Assembly (NCBI GenBank): GCA_030834695.1
Contig: JAUQXK010000014.1
Span: forward strand, 27,501 to 91,500
Source of the DNA: Desulfobacterales bacterium
GTDB taxonomy: Bacteria > Desulfobacterota > Desulfobacteria > Desulfobacterales > SpSt-501
Direction of reading: 5' to 3'
Length of the DNA: 64,000 nucleotides
Part shown: positions 25,691 through 31,330 of the stretch, in pieces
Numbering within the stretch: the first letter of the stretch is position 1
Layout: every line of letters begins with the position of its first letter
The notes under the pieces: model-generated
Database searches by the model: none
What the model saw: the letters and a program-made list of their open reading frames with translations, nothing else
What the model was told of the DNA's origin: nothing
Made by a program: the position numbers and the translations under genes

Positions 25691-25783
25691 GGAGAGGTGG
25701 CCGAGTGGCTGAAGGCGCCGCTCTCGAAAAGCGGTATCCTGTCAAAAACGGGATCGTGGGTTCAAATCCCACCCTCTCCGCCA
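25691..25783 (+). tRNA. tRNA-Ser (anticodon CGA)
   Basis: Acceptor arms GGAGAGG (25691-25697) and CCTCTCC (25773-25779) pair fully. The anticodon stem CCGCT/AGCGG encloses loop CTCGAAA, giving anticodon CGA for UCG codons. A long variable arm (TATCCTGTCAAAAACGGGAT) marks the serine class, and TTCAAAT is in the T loop. Discriminator G and CCA are encoded. Confidence 0.96.
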
Positions 25784-25916: not shown

Positions 25917-26010
25917 GGAGAGATGTCCGAGCTGGCCGAAGGAACACGACTGGAAATCGTGTGTGCTGCTAACACCGGCACCGTGGGTTCGAACCCCACT
26001 CTCTCCGCCA
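25917..26010 (+). tRNA. tRNA-Ser (anticodon GGA)
   Basis: Acceptor arms GGAGAGA (25917-25923) and TCTCTCC (26000-26006) pair fully. The anticodon stem CACGA/TCGTG holds loop CTGGAAA, giving anticodon GGA for UCC and UCU. A long variable arm and T loop TTCGAAC are present, and CCA is encoded. It lies 133 bases after tRNA-Ser(CGA) and just before dnaX. Confidence 0.96.
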
Positions 26011-26100
26011 CCATTATCATGGCCTCCCGGCGGTCGATCGCGGTCCTTCGGAATTTTCTGCTGTTTGGACTCATCTGAACGAAACCCGGCATCCAGTGAT

Positions 26101-27804
26101 ATGTCCTATCTCGTATTAGCTCGAAAATACCGGCCTCAAAGCTTTGCGGACGTTCTCGAGCAGGAGCACATTACTCGCACCCTCGGCAATGCGATTGCCG
26201 CCGGACGGGTGGCGCATGCGCTGCTCTTCTCGGGTCCGCGGGGAACGGGCAAGACCACCGTTGCACGTATTCTGGCCAAGGCGCTGAATTGTCGGTCGGA
26301 GTCGTCGGCCGCTCCCTGCAACCTATGCCGCTCCTGCCAGGACATTACCGCCGGCCATGCGGTGGACGTTTACGAAATTGACGGTGCTTCCAACAACAGT
26401 GTGGATCAGATCCGAGAGCTGCGGGAGAACGTCAAATACATGCCGGCCCACAGCCCTTACAAGATTTATATCATCGACGAAGTTCACATGCTCAGCACGC
26501 CGGCCTTCAATGCGTTGTTGAAGACGTTGGAGGAGCCGCCCGCGCATGTGATATTCATGTTCGCCACCACCGAACCGCATAAAATCCCGATCACCATCTT
26601 ATCGCGTTGCCAGCGCTTCGATTTCCGACGTGTTCGGGTATCCGCCATCGCGGGGTATCTGGCGACAATCTGTCGCCGGGAGGGGGTTGAAATCGGCCCG
26701 GAGAGCCTGGATGTGATCGCGCGGGAATCCGGCGGAAGCGTACGCGACAGCCTGAGTTTGCTGGACCAGGCCATCGCCTGCGGGCAGAAAACGATCCCGC
26801 ATTCCCAGATCCTGGAAACGCTTGGGGTTATCGACCGCAACCAGCTGCGGCAGCTGGCGGACGCACTGCTGGCGGGTGAACCGCTGCCGTTCCTGGCCGG
26901 CCTTGATGAGCTTTTCGACCGCGGCCACGACATCAAGAAGCTGTTCGCAGATCTGCTCGAGTATTTCCGGGATCTATGGGTGGTTCAGACCAGCTCGGAA
27001 CCGCGCAAAGCTGTCGATTTGCCGGCCGACGAAATCGATGCCCTGCAGGCCCAGAGCGGCCAGGTCTCGAGTGTTGCTCTCCAGCAGATCCTGGATATTC
27101 TTTATCGAGAGGAACCCATTGTTCGGCTTTCACCTCAGCCCAAGCTGGCGTTGGAGATGGCGTTCTTCCGAACACTGCATGCGCGGGCGGCGCTCTCCAT
27201 CGACACGCTCATCCGCAAGGTGGAGGATCTGCGACAGGAGGTCGGCGGGGCGGGGGGGGATCGCCCGCCGCCCGGTCGTGGAACGTCGCAAGCGGATGCC
27301 GGACGATCGGCCGAGGCACTCCGCCGGCCTGGCGCTTCGCCGCTGCCCGATGCGGCACCGGCGGCAGAGACGGTCCCGGCGGGGGGCGGTGGCGGATTGG
27401 CGGCGGATCCGCAAAATCCGCTCGCGGCGGCGTGGCAGGCCATTGTCCAGAGCGTTTCCCGGAACTACCCCAGCCTGGGCGCGAACCTCAAGAAATGCTG
27501 TCTTCGCCATGCCGATTCCAAGCGGGTGGAGATCATTGCTCCGGCCACCCCATTCATCCGCTCCATGTTGCAGCGTGAAAAGAATTTATCGCTATTGAAA
27601 AAAGTTTGTGCGGAAGTGTTCGGTGGGCGGCCGGATGTGATCGTGACCACCGCCGACGAATGCGGTGACTCATCGGCCGAGCGGCGCGATCGCCATCACA
27701 GCCGGGTCCAAGAGACGCTCAATCACCCGGTGGTGGCTGACGCCATCGAAATCTTCAACGGCAAGCTCGTGGACGTGCAGATCCGACAGGAGGTGGATAA
27801 ATGA
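26101..27804 (+). CDS. dnaX: DNA polymerase III subunits gamma and tau
   Basis: DnaX is the ATPase of the clamp loader and links polymerase cores. The 567-residue protein has Walker [10 protein letters not shown], the zinc module cysteines (C...CNLC...C), DEVHMLS (Walker B) and [10 protein letters not shown] (SRC motif). A Pro/Gly/Ala-rich linker (about 385-450) leads to a C-terminal tau-like domain. No in-frame shift site of the E. coli A-AAA-AAG kind was found in the linker, so a short gamma form is not supported. ATG 26101 ([12 protein letters not shown]) has only a weak upstream site. Confidence 0.97.
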
Positions 27805-28112
27805 AGGGCATGGGCCAAATGATGAAGCAGGCGCAGCAACTCCAGGCGCGCATGCTCAAGCTACAGGCCGAACTGGGTGAACGGACGGTGGAGTCCGCCG
27901 TCGGCGGCGGCATGATCAAAGTGGTGGCGAATGGCCGCCAGCAGGTCGTATCGATCCGGATTGAGAAGGAAGTGGTCAATCCCGAGGACGTGGAGATGCT
28001 GCAGGACTTGATCCTGGCCGCCGTCAACGACGCGCTGACGAAGTCGCAGGAAATGGTCAGCTCAGAAATGGGCAAGCTGACGGGCGGCCTGAATCTGCCG
28101 GGGTTGATGTGA
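27801..28112 (+). CDS. ybaB: YbaB/EbfC family nucleoid-associated protein
   Basis: The 103-residue protein starts [20 protein letters not shown] and carries the [19 protein letters not shown] core. YbaB/EbfC proteins are small dimeric DNA binders usually encoded between dnaX and recR, as here. The start overlaps the dnaX stop by four bases, and recR follows after four bases. Confidence 0.96.
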
Positions 28113-28116
28113 TCGC

Positions 28117-28719
28117 ATGAGCATCTATCCAGCCCCCATCCGCCAGTTGATCAAACACATGGCACGGCTTCCCGGGATCGGGGAGAAGACCGCCGAGCGC
28201 CTGGCGCTCCATCTGCTTTACACGGCGGACCATTTCGTGGAAGAACTGGGCCGCAGCATTCTCGATGTCAAGCGCAACGTCCGGCTTTGTTCCCGCTGTT
28301 TTTCGCTGGCTGACAGAGACCTTTGCGCCATCTGCAGCAATCCGGCGCGCGATGGTTCGGTGGTGTGCGTCGTCGAGCAACCGGGCGACATGGTCGCCTT
28401 GGAGAAATCCGGCGCATTCAATGGTCACTATCATGTGCTTTCCGGGGTGCTGTCTCCCATGAATGGGGTGGGTCCGGATGATCTTCGGATCCGGGAGCTT
28501 CTTCAGAAAGTCACTGCCGGCGGGGTTCGCGAGATCGTGCTGGCCACCGGCACCAGCGTCGAAGGCGAAGCCACCGCCGCTTATATTGCCGGTCAATTGG
28601 AAAGCCGACCGGTAACCGTGACCCGGATCGCCGCAGGGGTCCCCATGGGCGGCGATCTGAAATACGTGGACCAGGTGACCCTCAAGAAGGCCATGGAGTC
28701 GCGTCGTGCCATCCCATAG
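28117..28719 (+). CDS. recR: Recombination mediator RecR
   Basis: RecR acts with RecO and RecF to load RecA at gaps. The 200-residue protein has the helix-hairpin-helix LPGIGEKTAERLALHLL, a C4 zinc finger (CSRCFSLADRDLCAIC, 58-73) and a Toprim domain with VVEQPGDMVALEKSG. Length is normal. The next gene starts inside its last codons. Confidence 0.97.
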   Translation: MSIYPAPIRQLIKHMARLPGIGEKTAERLALHLLYTADHFVEELGRSILDVKRNVRLCSRCFSLADRDLCAICSNPARDGSVVCVVEQPGDMVALEKSGAFNGHYHVLSGVLSPMNGVGPDDLRIRELLQKVTAGGVREIVLATGTSVEGEATAAYIAGQLESRPVTVTRIAAGVPMGGDLKYVDQVTLKKAMESRRAIP

Positions 28720-29122
28720 CCTGGCTGCGGAAGATCTGTTCCGCTGCACGCTCTGCGGCGATTGCTGCCGGGGATTCGGCGGGACTTACGTCAGCCGTGA
28801 AGACGTCCGATCCATTGCCGCGTTTCTGGCAACCGATCCCTCCGACTTGATCGATCGCTGCTGCCACCGTTCCGGCGGGCGCTACCTGCTGGCACAGCGG
28901 GCGGACGGGTACTGCATCTTTTGGGATAAGACCTGCACCATTCATCCGGTGAAACCCCGTATGTGCCGCCGCTGGCCGTTTATCGAAAGCGTGGTGACGG
29001 ATGCGTTCAACTGGAAGATCATGGCGTCCCTCTGCCCCGGCATGCGCGCCGATGTGCCACTCGATTCCGTACGGGAGTGCGTTCAGAGGATTCTGGCCTC
29101 CGAAGCACCGGAACCGACGTGA
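28706..29122 (+). CDS. YkgJ-family cysteine cluster protein
   Basis: The 138-residue protein has the CxxCxxCC cluster (RCTLCGDCCRGFGG, 14-27), then YCIFWDKTCTIHPVKPRMCRRWPF, the signature of the YkgJ/Fe-S oxidoreductase-like cysteine cluster family (PF03692). These cysteines may bind zinc or an iron-sulfur cluster; the function is unknown. It starts at GTG 28706, overlapping recR by 14 bases, which suggests translational coupling. Confidence 0.82.
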   Translation: MPSHSLAAEDLFRCTLCGDCCRGFGGTYVSREDVRSIAAFLATDPSDLIDRCCHRSGGRYLLAQRADGYCIFWDKTCTIHPVKPRMCRRWPFIESVVTDAFNWKIMASLCPGMRADVPLDSVRECVQRILASEAPEPT

Positions 29123-29203
29123 CCGTGCTGGCCGTCGAACCGGGATCACCGCCGGTTGGCCTGCGCCGGGTCCTATGAAGCATCGCACGGTTGCGGGGTG
29201 GCC

Positions 29204-29986
29204 ATGATTGGAGTCATCGATGCCGGAGTCGGCGGGCTGCACCTCGTTGATGCGCTTCTGAAGCAACTGCCCGACCAGGACATTGTCTACTACGCGGATA
29301 CGCTCCGCGCACCTTATGGCAACCGAAGCGCCGAAACGATCGTGCGCGGGGCGCTCGAAGCTGCGGAACGGGTGTGGCACAGCGGCGCTCGGGTCTTGGT
29401 GGCGGCCAGTCACACGATATCCGTTGTCGCCTTTGAGGCGCTGTCGCGCCGTTTTGGCGATGCGCTTTTCGATGTGGCGACGACGGCCGTGCAGGCCGCC
29501 ATCGAAAACTCACACGGCCAGCGCATCGGCCTGGTCGCCTCCCGTGCAACCGTCGAAAGTCGACGTTACGAAGAGTTGATCCGGGATCGCTGTCCTCGGG
29601 CCAACCTCTTCGTGGCGGCCTGCCCCCTGTGGGGGGCCCTGGTCGAGGAAGGATGGCATAAGCGACGCGAAGCCGCATGGGTCGTTAAGCGCGGCGTTCG
29701 TGAGATAAAGCAGCACCGGGTGGATACGCTGATTCTCGGAAGCAATACGTTTGCTGCGCTGCAGCCGGTGATTCAACGCAAGGTCGGACCTCAGGTAATC
29801 CTGGTGGAGGCTTCCGCCAACCTGGCTTCCCGGGTGGCGGAGCACCTCCGGTTTCAGGAGCCTCCGCCCGCTGCGGAGCGCGGCGGTCGGAAGGTCCAAT
29901 TATGGGTTTCGGATCTCACGCCCCAGGTGGCGCAGACCGCCCGACGGTTCCTGGGTCGGAATGTGACATTGGAGCGGGCGGATTGA
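29204..29986 (+). CDS. Glutamate racemase-like protein lacking both catalytic cysteines
   Basis: The 260-residue protein follows MurI along its whole length: IGVIDAGVGGLHLVDALLK, DTLRAPYGNRSAETI, ACPLWGALVEEG and a normal C-terminus. The two cysteines that racemise glutamate are replaced. ACNTA reads ASHTI, with Ser69, and LGCTHYP reads LGSNTFA, with Ser180. The substrate loop Thr/His residues are also changed. It is therefore unlikely to be a MurI that supplies D-glutamate to peptidoglycan. It could bind a ligand or partner, or catalyse another reaction. ATG 29204 with GGGGTGG upstream gives the conserved N-terminus. Confidence 0.8.
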   Translation: MIGVIDAGVGGLHLVDALLKQLPDQDIVYYADTLRAPYGNRSAETIVRGALEAAERVWHSGARVLVAASHTISVVAFEALSRRFGDALFDVATTAVQAAIENSHGQRIGLVASRATVESRRYEELIRDRCPRANLFVAACPLWGALVEEGWHKRREAAWVVKRGVREIKQHRVDTLILGSNTFAALQPVIQRKVGPQVILVEASANLASRVAEHLRFQEPPPAAERGGRKVQLWVSDLTPQVAQTARRFLGRNVTLERAD

Positions 29987-30061
29987 ACGGCCGGAATCCA
30001 CGCAGCGGGCGGTCTCCATCGCGGCTGCCGCGATGGACCACTGGAACAGGGATAGCTACCC

Positions 30062-31330
30062 ATGACCGATGACCGCTTCGTTCCGGCCAAACGGGCTTCG
30101 AAACCAGCGGACCGCTGCGAGGAATGCCGGCGATTGGAATCCCTGCTGCGCAAGACCGAGCTGGCTCTGGGCGACGCCGAGCGACAGCTGCAGCAAGCCC
30201 AGAAAATGGAGGCGCTCGGGACCCTCGTGGCCGGCGTGGCGCACGAGATCAACAATCCGCTCAATCTCATTCTCTACAACCTGCCGTTGCTGCAAAAAAC
30301 GTGGGCGGATTTGCTGCCGGTGCTGACCGCCCACCGCCGCCATGAGCCCGCGAAGAAGTTCGGCGGATTCACGTACGACTTCCTTCAGGAGCACCTGCCG
30401 CAGCTGATCGCCGATATGGAAATGGCCGCTCAGCGGATGGCCAAAATCGTCTCCGATCTTAAGAATTTTTCGCGTCAGTCCAACATCTCGGATCAGGGCC
30501 CGCTCAATATCAACGCGGCGGTCCGCAATGCCCTGCGTTTATCCCAGAGCACGCTGCGCAAGGCCGGGGTGGCCGTTCATATGGGGCTGGCGGAAGACCT
30601 GCCTGACGTCAGAGGAAATTTGTACAACCTCGAGCAGGTGGTTTTAAACCTGGTGATCAACGCGGCCCAGGCCATCGATCACGCGAACGGGGAAATCTCC
30701 ATCCGCACGGGCGTGACGTTCAACGACGGACGGGTGTGGATTCAGATCTCGGACAACGGGTGCGGTGTCTCGCCCGCCATCGCCGACCGCATCTTCCTGC
30801 CCTTCGTCAGCGACAAGCAGGCTCAGGGAGGAACCGGGCTCGGCTTGTCCGTGACCTACAGCCTGGTAAAAGCCCACGGTGGAGATGTTGCCTTTGAGAA
30901 TCGGCCCGGCGGCGGTACAATTTTTACGGTGCGGCTGCCCAGCTTGATGGAGCGCCAAGCTGCCAAGATTCTCGTGGTGGACGACGACCCGATGGTCCGC
31001 CAGATCCTGATGGAAGCGTTGGCTCTGCCGCGTGCGTATTTGCTGGAAGAAGCCGCCAACGGCATCGAGGCATCGATCCGGCTGGGGACCTACCGCCCCG
31101 ATCTGCTCATACTGGATGTGTTCATGCCGGAGATGGATGGCCTGGAGGTCTGCCGGAGCATCCAGACCGAGCCGGCGCTTGCCGGAGTCAAAGTGATCAT
31201 CACAACCGGCTATCCGGGTCATCCCAAGCTGGACGAACTGGCGGCACTCGGGTTCAGCCACGTGCTGGCCAAACCGTTCGACCTTCCGCTCCTGTTGCAG
31301 ACCGTTCAGGCCCTCCTGGCGCAACGCTGA
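30062..31330 (+). CDS. Hybrid sensor histidine kinase with C-terminal receiver
   Basis: The 422-residue soluble protein has no membrane segment or PAS domain. It contains a CEEC pair (19-22), a coiled coil (23-50), and a HisKA-like helix with the phosphorylated His61 in GVAHEINNPLN. The HATPase domain has VVLNLVINAAQA, the G1 box SDNGCGV and the G2 box GGTGLGLS. A receiver domain (302-420) has DDD and the acceptor Asp352 in LLILDVFMPEMDG. No separate response regulator is adjacent, and the signal is unknown. Confidence 0.9.
   Translation: MTDDRFVPAKRASKPADRCEECRRLESLLRKTELALGDAERQLQQAQKMEALGTLVAGVAHEINNPLNLILYNLPLLQKTWADLLPVLTAHRRHEPAKKFGGFTYDFLQEHLPQLIADMEMAAQRMAKIVSDLKNFSRQSNISDQGPLNINAAVRNALRLSQSTLRKAGVAVHMGLAEDLPDVRGNLYNLEQVVLNLVINAAQAIDHANGEISIRTGVTFNDGRVWIQISDNGCGVSPAIADRIFLPFVSDKQAQGGTGLGLSVTYSLVKAHGGDVAFENRPGGGTIFTVRLPSLMERQAAKILVVDDDPMVRQILMEALALPRAYLLEEAANGIEASIRLGTYRPDLLILDVFMPEMDGLEVCRSIQTEPALAGVKVIITTGYPGHPKLDELAALGFSHVLAKPFDLPLLLQTVQALLAQR

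Follow-up and report, generated by a model that had tools for sequence, protein, structure and literature searches.

The window, by which we mean the whole stretch of DNA analysed (64,000 nucleotides), carries a homologue of the glutamate racemase MurI in a conserved run of genes. The genes and codons to which we refer are the following, in window coordinates.

25963 to 27804, forward strand: dnaX, the first gene of the conserved slot (the start is that of the listed open reading frame; an ATG further inside begins the protein proper)
27801 to 28112, forward strand: ybaB-like gene of the conserved slot
28117 to 28719, forward strand: recR, with RecR_HhH, RecR_ZnF, Toprim_4 and RecR_C domains
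28706 to 29122, forward strand: gene for a CxxCxxCC protein (PF03692), here called ykgJ-like, which immediately precedes the murI slot
29204 to 29986, forward strand: Ser/Ser MurI homologue, 260 amino acids from an ATG (the end coordinate includes the stop), a MurI orthologue without the catalytic cysteines
29408 to 29410, forward strand: AGT codon of Ser69, in the place of the first catalytic cysteine (ACNT reads ASHT)
29741 to 29743, forward strand: AGC codon of Ser180, in the place of the second catalytic cysteine (GCTHYP reads GSNTFA)
30062 to 31330, forward strand: gene for a HisKA-HATPase-receiver hybrid protein, which comes straight after the ykgJ-like gene in the five congeners without a MurI-like gene

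The name dnaX is presumed by similarity, and the name ybaB for 27801 to 28112 is our assumption. Between a methyltransferase-like gene and dnaX lies a pair of tRNA-Ser genes with the anticodons cga and gga (25691-25783 and 25917-26010). An RNA element was also sought at the locus, and no Rfam match exceeded its gathering score in 29000-30200.

The first-pass annotation of this DNA described a full-length and intact MurI homologue at 29204-29986, and we agree: the coordinates are right and the frame of 260 codons contains no stop. If translation began instead at the TTG at 29156, the product would have 276 amino acids. The curated model TIGR00067 scores the protein at about 141.2-141.6 bits and so just misses its cut-off of 146.65, and the E. 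coli-type and other equivalog models place it far below theirs, while the broader PF01177 gives 48.5 bits (cut-off 31). A sequence search of the PDB returned 23 chains at E <= 0.001, the best being the MurI structure 2jfu (3.5e-35). The AF2 model (pLDDT 74.3, pTM 0.75), built from an alignment of three sequences and used for the fold, with pocket geometry left aside, matches MurI 3ist with Z 29.8 and rmsd 2.8 over 259 aligned residues. The earlier statement that the fold motifs are kept from end to end needs to be narrowed: the fold does run over the full length, but DSG reads DAG, GDT reads ADT, CNT reads SHT and CTH reads SNT. By descent the protein belongs to MurI, having the full-length fold and a gene in the canonical genomic slot. 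By its sequence it falls outside the glutamate racemases as an enzyme class, since it lacks the two catalytic cysteines and scores under TIGR00067, and it does not have the Thr/Cys catalytic pair of the EcL-DER type either.

That both catalytic cysteines are replaced by serine had been read correctly. Ser69 stands in the context VAASHTISV and Ser180 in LILGSNTFAAL, where the canonical rows of Desulfobacterales have cysteine at each catalytic position in 47 of 47 cases; AGT and AGC are each one step away from a cysteine codon. With neither thiol present, the MurI two-base mechanism as described cannot operate. Around these residues, Ser7 has become Ala, Asn70 His, Thr113 Ser, Thr181 Asn and His182 Thr, and Asp6, Pro37, Tyr38, Gly39, Thr71, Thr116 and Glu148 are retained. 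Among the 14 positions that we take, after MurI structures, to line the pocket, seven have the canonical residue, compared with 39 of 61 among the rest of the highly conserved positions, a difference that for this protein alone is not significant (Fisher 0.37). The closest orthologue, from the congener G005, is 73% identical and carries the same serine pair, which the first-pass annotation had proposed to look for; both of its catalytic sites are AGC codons. At five of the seven pocket positions that have changed, the two species (G000, the genome of the window, and G005) share the new residue, and residues 181 and 182 differ between them. Since the orthologue has serine at both sites in an independent record, a sequencing error or assembly artefact is ruled out.

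The ancestral order of the slot is dnaX-ybaB-recR-ykgJ-murI, and the Ser/Ser gene occupies the place of murI. In the fetched stretches, recR accompanies 40 of 47 canonical murI loci and 19 of 21 cysteine-less loci, the latter count leaving out five loci of family f45. The gene is thus the murI orthologue in its ancestral slot; a stray paralogue was considered and rejected because the gene sits in the canonical place. In a genus sample of seven genomes, the gene is present in the Ser/Ser form in G000 and G005, which are sisters on the tree of neighbouring genes (support 100), and missing in G001, G002, G003, G004 and G006. These five keep the order dnaX-ybaB-recR-ykgJ-HK-frdB-frdA intact, and a search with the Ser/Ser protein found no MurI-like match within the slot or anywhere else in their genomes. 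Its absence from a slot that is otherwise complete in these five genomes shows that the gene is dispensable there.

Where it is kept, the gene is under selection. The pair from G000 and G005 gives dS 1.16, dN 0.171 and dN/dS 0.147 (Nei-Gojobori). Canonical pairs range from 0.049 to 0.187 (14 pairs; two of 16 had saturated dS), and ten pairs with at least one cysteine missing from each row range from 0.147 to 0.38. Constraint on the Ser/Ser form is comparable to that on working racemases, its ratio falling within the canonical range, although the gene has the highest dN among the neighbouring genes compared. Both proteins have Ala7, Ser69, His70, Ser113 and Ser180, so their ancestor very probably had these residues already, and constraint acted on the changed form. 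The earlier claim of selection for another function is therefore supported as regards selection, which acted on a protein that very probably had the Ser/Ser pair already; as regards function, a new catalytic role does not have to follow from the missing thiols, because the supply of D-glutamate is most simply explained by a predicted group II D-amino-acid transaminase (DAAT), to which we return below.

The host genome (5.65 Mb, 149 contigs, 100% complete) was searched for a second, true murI, as had been proposed, and none was found with TIGR00067 or PF01177. With TIGR00067, no second gene comes near the family cut-off: apart from the Ser/Ser gene, its one match is on contig C27, at 31.9 bits. 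A search with PF01177 yields four genes including the Ser/Ser MurI, and the other three are of the aspartate-racemase type (C27), the cysteate racemase CuyB (C34; 246.9 bits, cut-off 190) and the PRK07475 type (C143), so that a second murI among these relatives is rejected. The C27 protein reaches 176.9 bits with TIGR00035 (cut-off 93.1), and its PDB matches are L-Asp/Glu-specific racemases (5ell, 3.8e-34). We also observed that this protein (L003:1468-2199, minus strand) has an SNSPH motif where its relatives have Cys or Thr and reads GCTELP at the second position, which might make a Ser/Cys pair or one related to it.

D-glutamate is needed in the genus, since MurD scores over its cut-off in all seven genomes. 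The host genome has four class IV aminotransferase matches. One of them, a candidate DAAT of 281 amino acids (L080:688-1530), has 7p8o and 7p7x as its best PDB matches, at 1e-47; 7p7x is the DAAT of H. hydrossis, described in the relevant part of its report as strictly D-specific and fast with D-glutamate and pyruvate (PMC8401098). Arg28 and Arg90 of the candidate align with the H. hydrossis enzyme and give the dyad, a first-shell Arg with a second-shell Arg or Lys, by which a section of PMC12429042 defines group II DAATs. A transaminase with this dyad is present in all seven genus genomes, the open reading frame of G005 being cut by a contig end. The candidate lies under all NCBIfam equivalog cut-offs. 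A fold-IV transaminase of Desulfobacula toluolica is reported, in the pertinent passages of PMC11673721, to carry out half-reactions only, with no overall transamination with D-alanine or D-glutamate; its motif differs from the dyad of the L080 protein.

The loss of cysteines extends beyond this genus. From the set of MurI-like proteins of the order, six rows (five distant homologues and one duplicate) were dropped first. One or both cysteines are missing from 26 of the 86 aligned rows, spread over 12 families, and nine of these have serine at both positions; because rows were chosen partly for low scores and the sample is not random, this is not a frequency. Serine stands at position 69 in 17 of the 26 and histidine at position 70 in 15, and the second catalytic position may be Ser, Thr, Gly, Asp, Asn, Glu, Ala, Arg or Cys. 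The scaffold columns Gly109, Leu142 and Lys193 are kept in all 26. The canonical residue is found at a median of 0.48 of the pocket positions and 0.73 of the other conserved positions (p 0.008 including the two cysteines, p 0.034 without them).

Several neighbouring cases deserve mention. Five cysteine-less rows of f45 lie away from the slot tested, and in four of the f45 genomes a second, canonical-looking MurI is retained as well. Within this family, L113 (G207), L111 (G219), L117 (G158) and L120 (G135), all of genus g83, are Ser/Ser MurI-like genes off the usual slot in which Asp6 is also lost; each of these genomes has a second MurI with both cysteines beside the Ser/Ser protein, and three of the four Ser/Ser loci are near members of one membrane-protein-like cluster (C36). 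Divergent in-slot MurI proteins with both cysteines, and valine for the asparagine next to the first, occur at L122, L123 and L100 (G104, G160 and G056), and these genomes carry a separate homologue of about 310-320 amino acids with ACNTLSV and CCTHF (L125, L127 and L129). The Ser/Ser query also matched L079 (JAHFER010000251.1, a record titled Nitrospirae), a MurI with both cysteines that is cut by a contig end.

Two trees bear on the history of the loss. In the MurI tree, made by a quick method, the 26 cysteine-less rows and five divergent Cys/Cys rows form one clade with long branches (SH-aLRT 93). In a tree of three neighbouring genes (recR, ybaB and dnaX; 70 rows), the cysteine-less rows are scattered, and 11 changes between kept and lost are needed, three of them forced by starred branches; here and in the sub-sets G048 is counted as lost, yet its in-slot copy keeps both cysteines. 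A single clade of lost rows is rejected when G009 is in the set (p-AU 4e-14) and marginally so without it (p 0.048). Since the neighbouring genes scatter the lost rows, repeated loss of the cysteines is likely, and the trees do not fix the number of losses.

Across the whole sample, TIGR00067 finds some match in 321 of 389 genomes and scores over its cut-off in 249. With each of the 71 families represented by a single genome, a group I or group II DAAT is present in 20 of the 26 families with weak or absent MurI and in 14 of the 45 with canonical MurI (Fisher p 0.0002), with thresholds set after the gaps in E-values had been seen and with families that are not independent. For genomes at least 90% complete, the counts are 17 of 22 and 13 of 35 (p 0.006). 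Leaving out two genes truncated by contig ends and reassigning G056 (Cys/Cys) gives 20 of 23 and 14 of 46 (p 9e-6). The link is clear only once group I DAATs are added, other families with weak or absent MurI having a group I enzyme instead of group II: the group II query alone gives 11 of 26 against 11 of 45, with p 0.18 at two thresholds and 0.006 at a laxer one, and a rank test gives 0.0076 (0.048 when restricted to genomes that are at least 90% complete). Among ten genomes of genus g4, four without a close MurI have a group I DAAT, three without a DAAT have a canonical MurI and three have both (G231 was taken as absent because it is unlisted). Weak or absent MurI thus goes with DAAT across the 71 families, with exceptions. 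The families f8 (eight sampled genomes) and f38 (two), to which for example G120, G043 and G097 belong, yielded no close MurI and no DAAT of either group, and the same holds for G068; G099, G105 and G152 have a cysteine-less MurI and no DAAT match passing the threshold. Completeness is 79% for G013 and 73% for G152.

The explanation that we favour, somewhat more probable than its negation in our judgement, is that the gene is a murI after the loss of racemase chemistry, with DAAT taking over the supply of D-glutamate and the protein being kept in a non-racemase role. A murI in its ancestral place has lost both catalytic cysteines, part of its substrate pocket has changed, and the genome holds no other close MurI. 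The predicted group II DAAT, so named from its motif and similarity, would make D-glutamate from D-alanine and 2-oxoglutarate, and racemisation of L-glutamate by MurI would no longer be needed. The gene is dispensable in the five of seven sampled genomes whose slot is intact without it, and purifying selection maintains the Ser/Ser form in the two species that keep it. What is maintained would be a MurI-fold protein, most likely binding a ligand or partner through its conserved scaffold, with no 1,1-proton transfer. Purifying selection on the thiol-less form points to such a role, as does the keeping of scaffold columns (Gly109, Leu142 and Lys193) in the cysteine-less rows while their pocket columns erode, and we regard a dispensable non-racemase role as likely from sequence comparison. 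The best-known candidate, by analogy, is control of DNA gyrase, and passages of PMC10886550 report that inhibition of gyrase by MurI is not coupled to racemisation. Against this explanation stand the group II query alone (p 0.18), the exceptions f8, f38, G068, G099, G105 and G152, and the half-reactions of the D. toluolica enzyme. A wider statement, that DAAT-bearing lineages of this order have dropped racemase chemistry, some of them repeatedly, and that selection for a racemase-independent function kept the folded protein, is one that we put forward tentatively, as possible and still rather doubtful.

It is unlikely, in our view, that the gene is a functionless relic, a redundant MurI whose thiols were lost and which is on its way out, so that its completeness is a matter of time. 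Its absence from an intact slot in five of seven congeners and the highest dN among the neighbouring genes also fit slow decay and count against the explanation we favour, and the lower retention of pocket residues than of other conserved ones in the 26 cysteine-less rows (0.48 against 0.73) agrees with decay as well. A relic would hardly show dN/dS of 0.147, within the canonical range, over dS of 1.16 with no stop in either the G000 or the G005 copy; and with five of seven pocket changes identical in both species, the ancestor was probably already changed and constraint fell on the changed form.

Equally, MurI may have been given up in favour of a D-glutamate source other than DAAT, namely the C27 protein, a bifunctional DapF or a route of the MurD2/MurL type, and this too we think unlikely, slightly more so than decay. 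The C27 protein matches TIGR00035 and L-Asp/Glu-specific racemases (5ell, 3.8e-34) and could itself make D-glutamate, which is a point against a bypass by DAAT; bifunctional DapF supplies D-glutamate in C. trachomatis, according to passages of PMC5885031; and f8 and f38, having neither a close MurI nor DAAT I/II, must use something else. Within the genus, G006 (80% complete) has no PF01177 match, yet it has a group II DAAT.

Least probable, and in our opinion improbable, is that the protein is still an enzyme in which Ser69-His70, Ser180, Asp6, Thr71, Thr116 and Glu148 perform other chemistry such as dehydration, slow or one-way racemisation or isomerisation: parts of PMC8142540 describe one-way activity of EcL-DER with one cysteine replaced by threonine and a Cys-to-Thr change that made a related epimerase fold a dehydratase, and Ser69 and His70 recur in 17 and 15 of the 26 cysteine-less rows, but the second position varies over nine residues, so that there is no common new catalytic pair, and even the two congeners disagree at residues 181 and 182.

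No description of a cysteine-less MurI was found in the titles and abstracts of the literature searched, a scope that left subscription papers and preprints mostly outside. MurI is regarded as an essential protein and a target for drugs; the second role reported for it, the control of gyrase, is hard to separate from catalysis. Natural orthologues that are thiol-less and yet constrained would allow that role to be studied without racemase activity. If the wider statement made above is true, a second function of MurI would be the reason for the survival of the gene, and could be tested apart from catalysis. The comparison of the slot within one genus (Ser/Ser in two genomes, missing in five), together with the link to DAAT, would also give a view of a cell-wall step being handed to an unrelated enzyme. 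There is a warning here too, as homology-based annotation calls many of the cysteine-less proteins glutamate racemase.

Compared with known systems, the Ser/Ser protein is closest to MurI itself (TIGR00067; PDB 3ist, 1zuw and 1b73), with which it shares the fold over its whole length, its length, the murI slot of the order and Asp6, Pro37-Tyr38-Gly39, Thr71, Thr116 and Glu148; it differs in the serines at both catalytic positions, in the exchange of Ser7, Asn70, Thr113, Thr181 and His182, and in a score just under the cut-off. With the cysteine-less MurI-like proteins of the 11 further families it shares mostly the same slot, the loss of one or both cysteines and dN/dS below 0.4 in the pairs tested, and the replacement residues are different ones. 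EcL-DER and the aspartate racemases (PDB 5ell, 2zsk and 1jfl) belong to the same Asp/Glu racemase superfamily, with a clearly lower likeness of fold (Z about 16-18). EcL-DER is the precedent for a hydroxyl residue in place of one cysteine, but that type keeps one cysteine and here there is none; in the passages of PMC8142540 on the superfamily, one cysteine is replaced by threonine and never both. The gyrase-inhibiting MurI proteins of E. coli, B. subtilis and mycobacteria are of the same family, and those, in contrast to the putative non-racemase protein described here, are active racemases.
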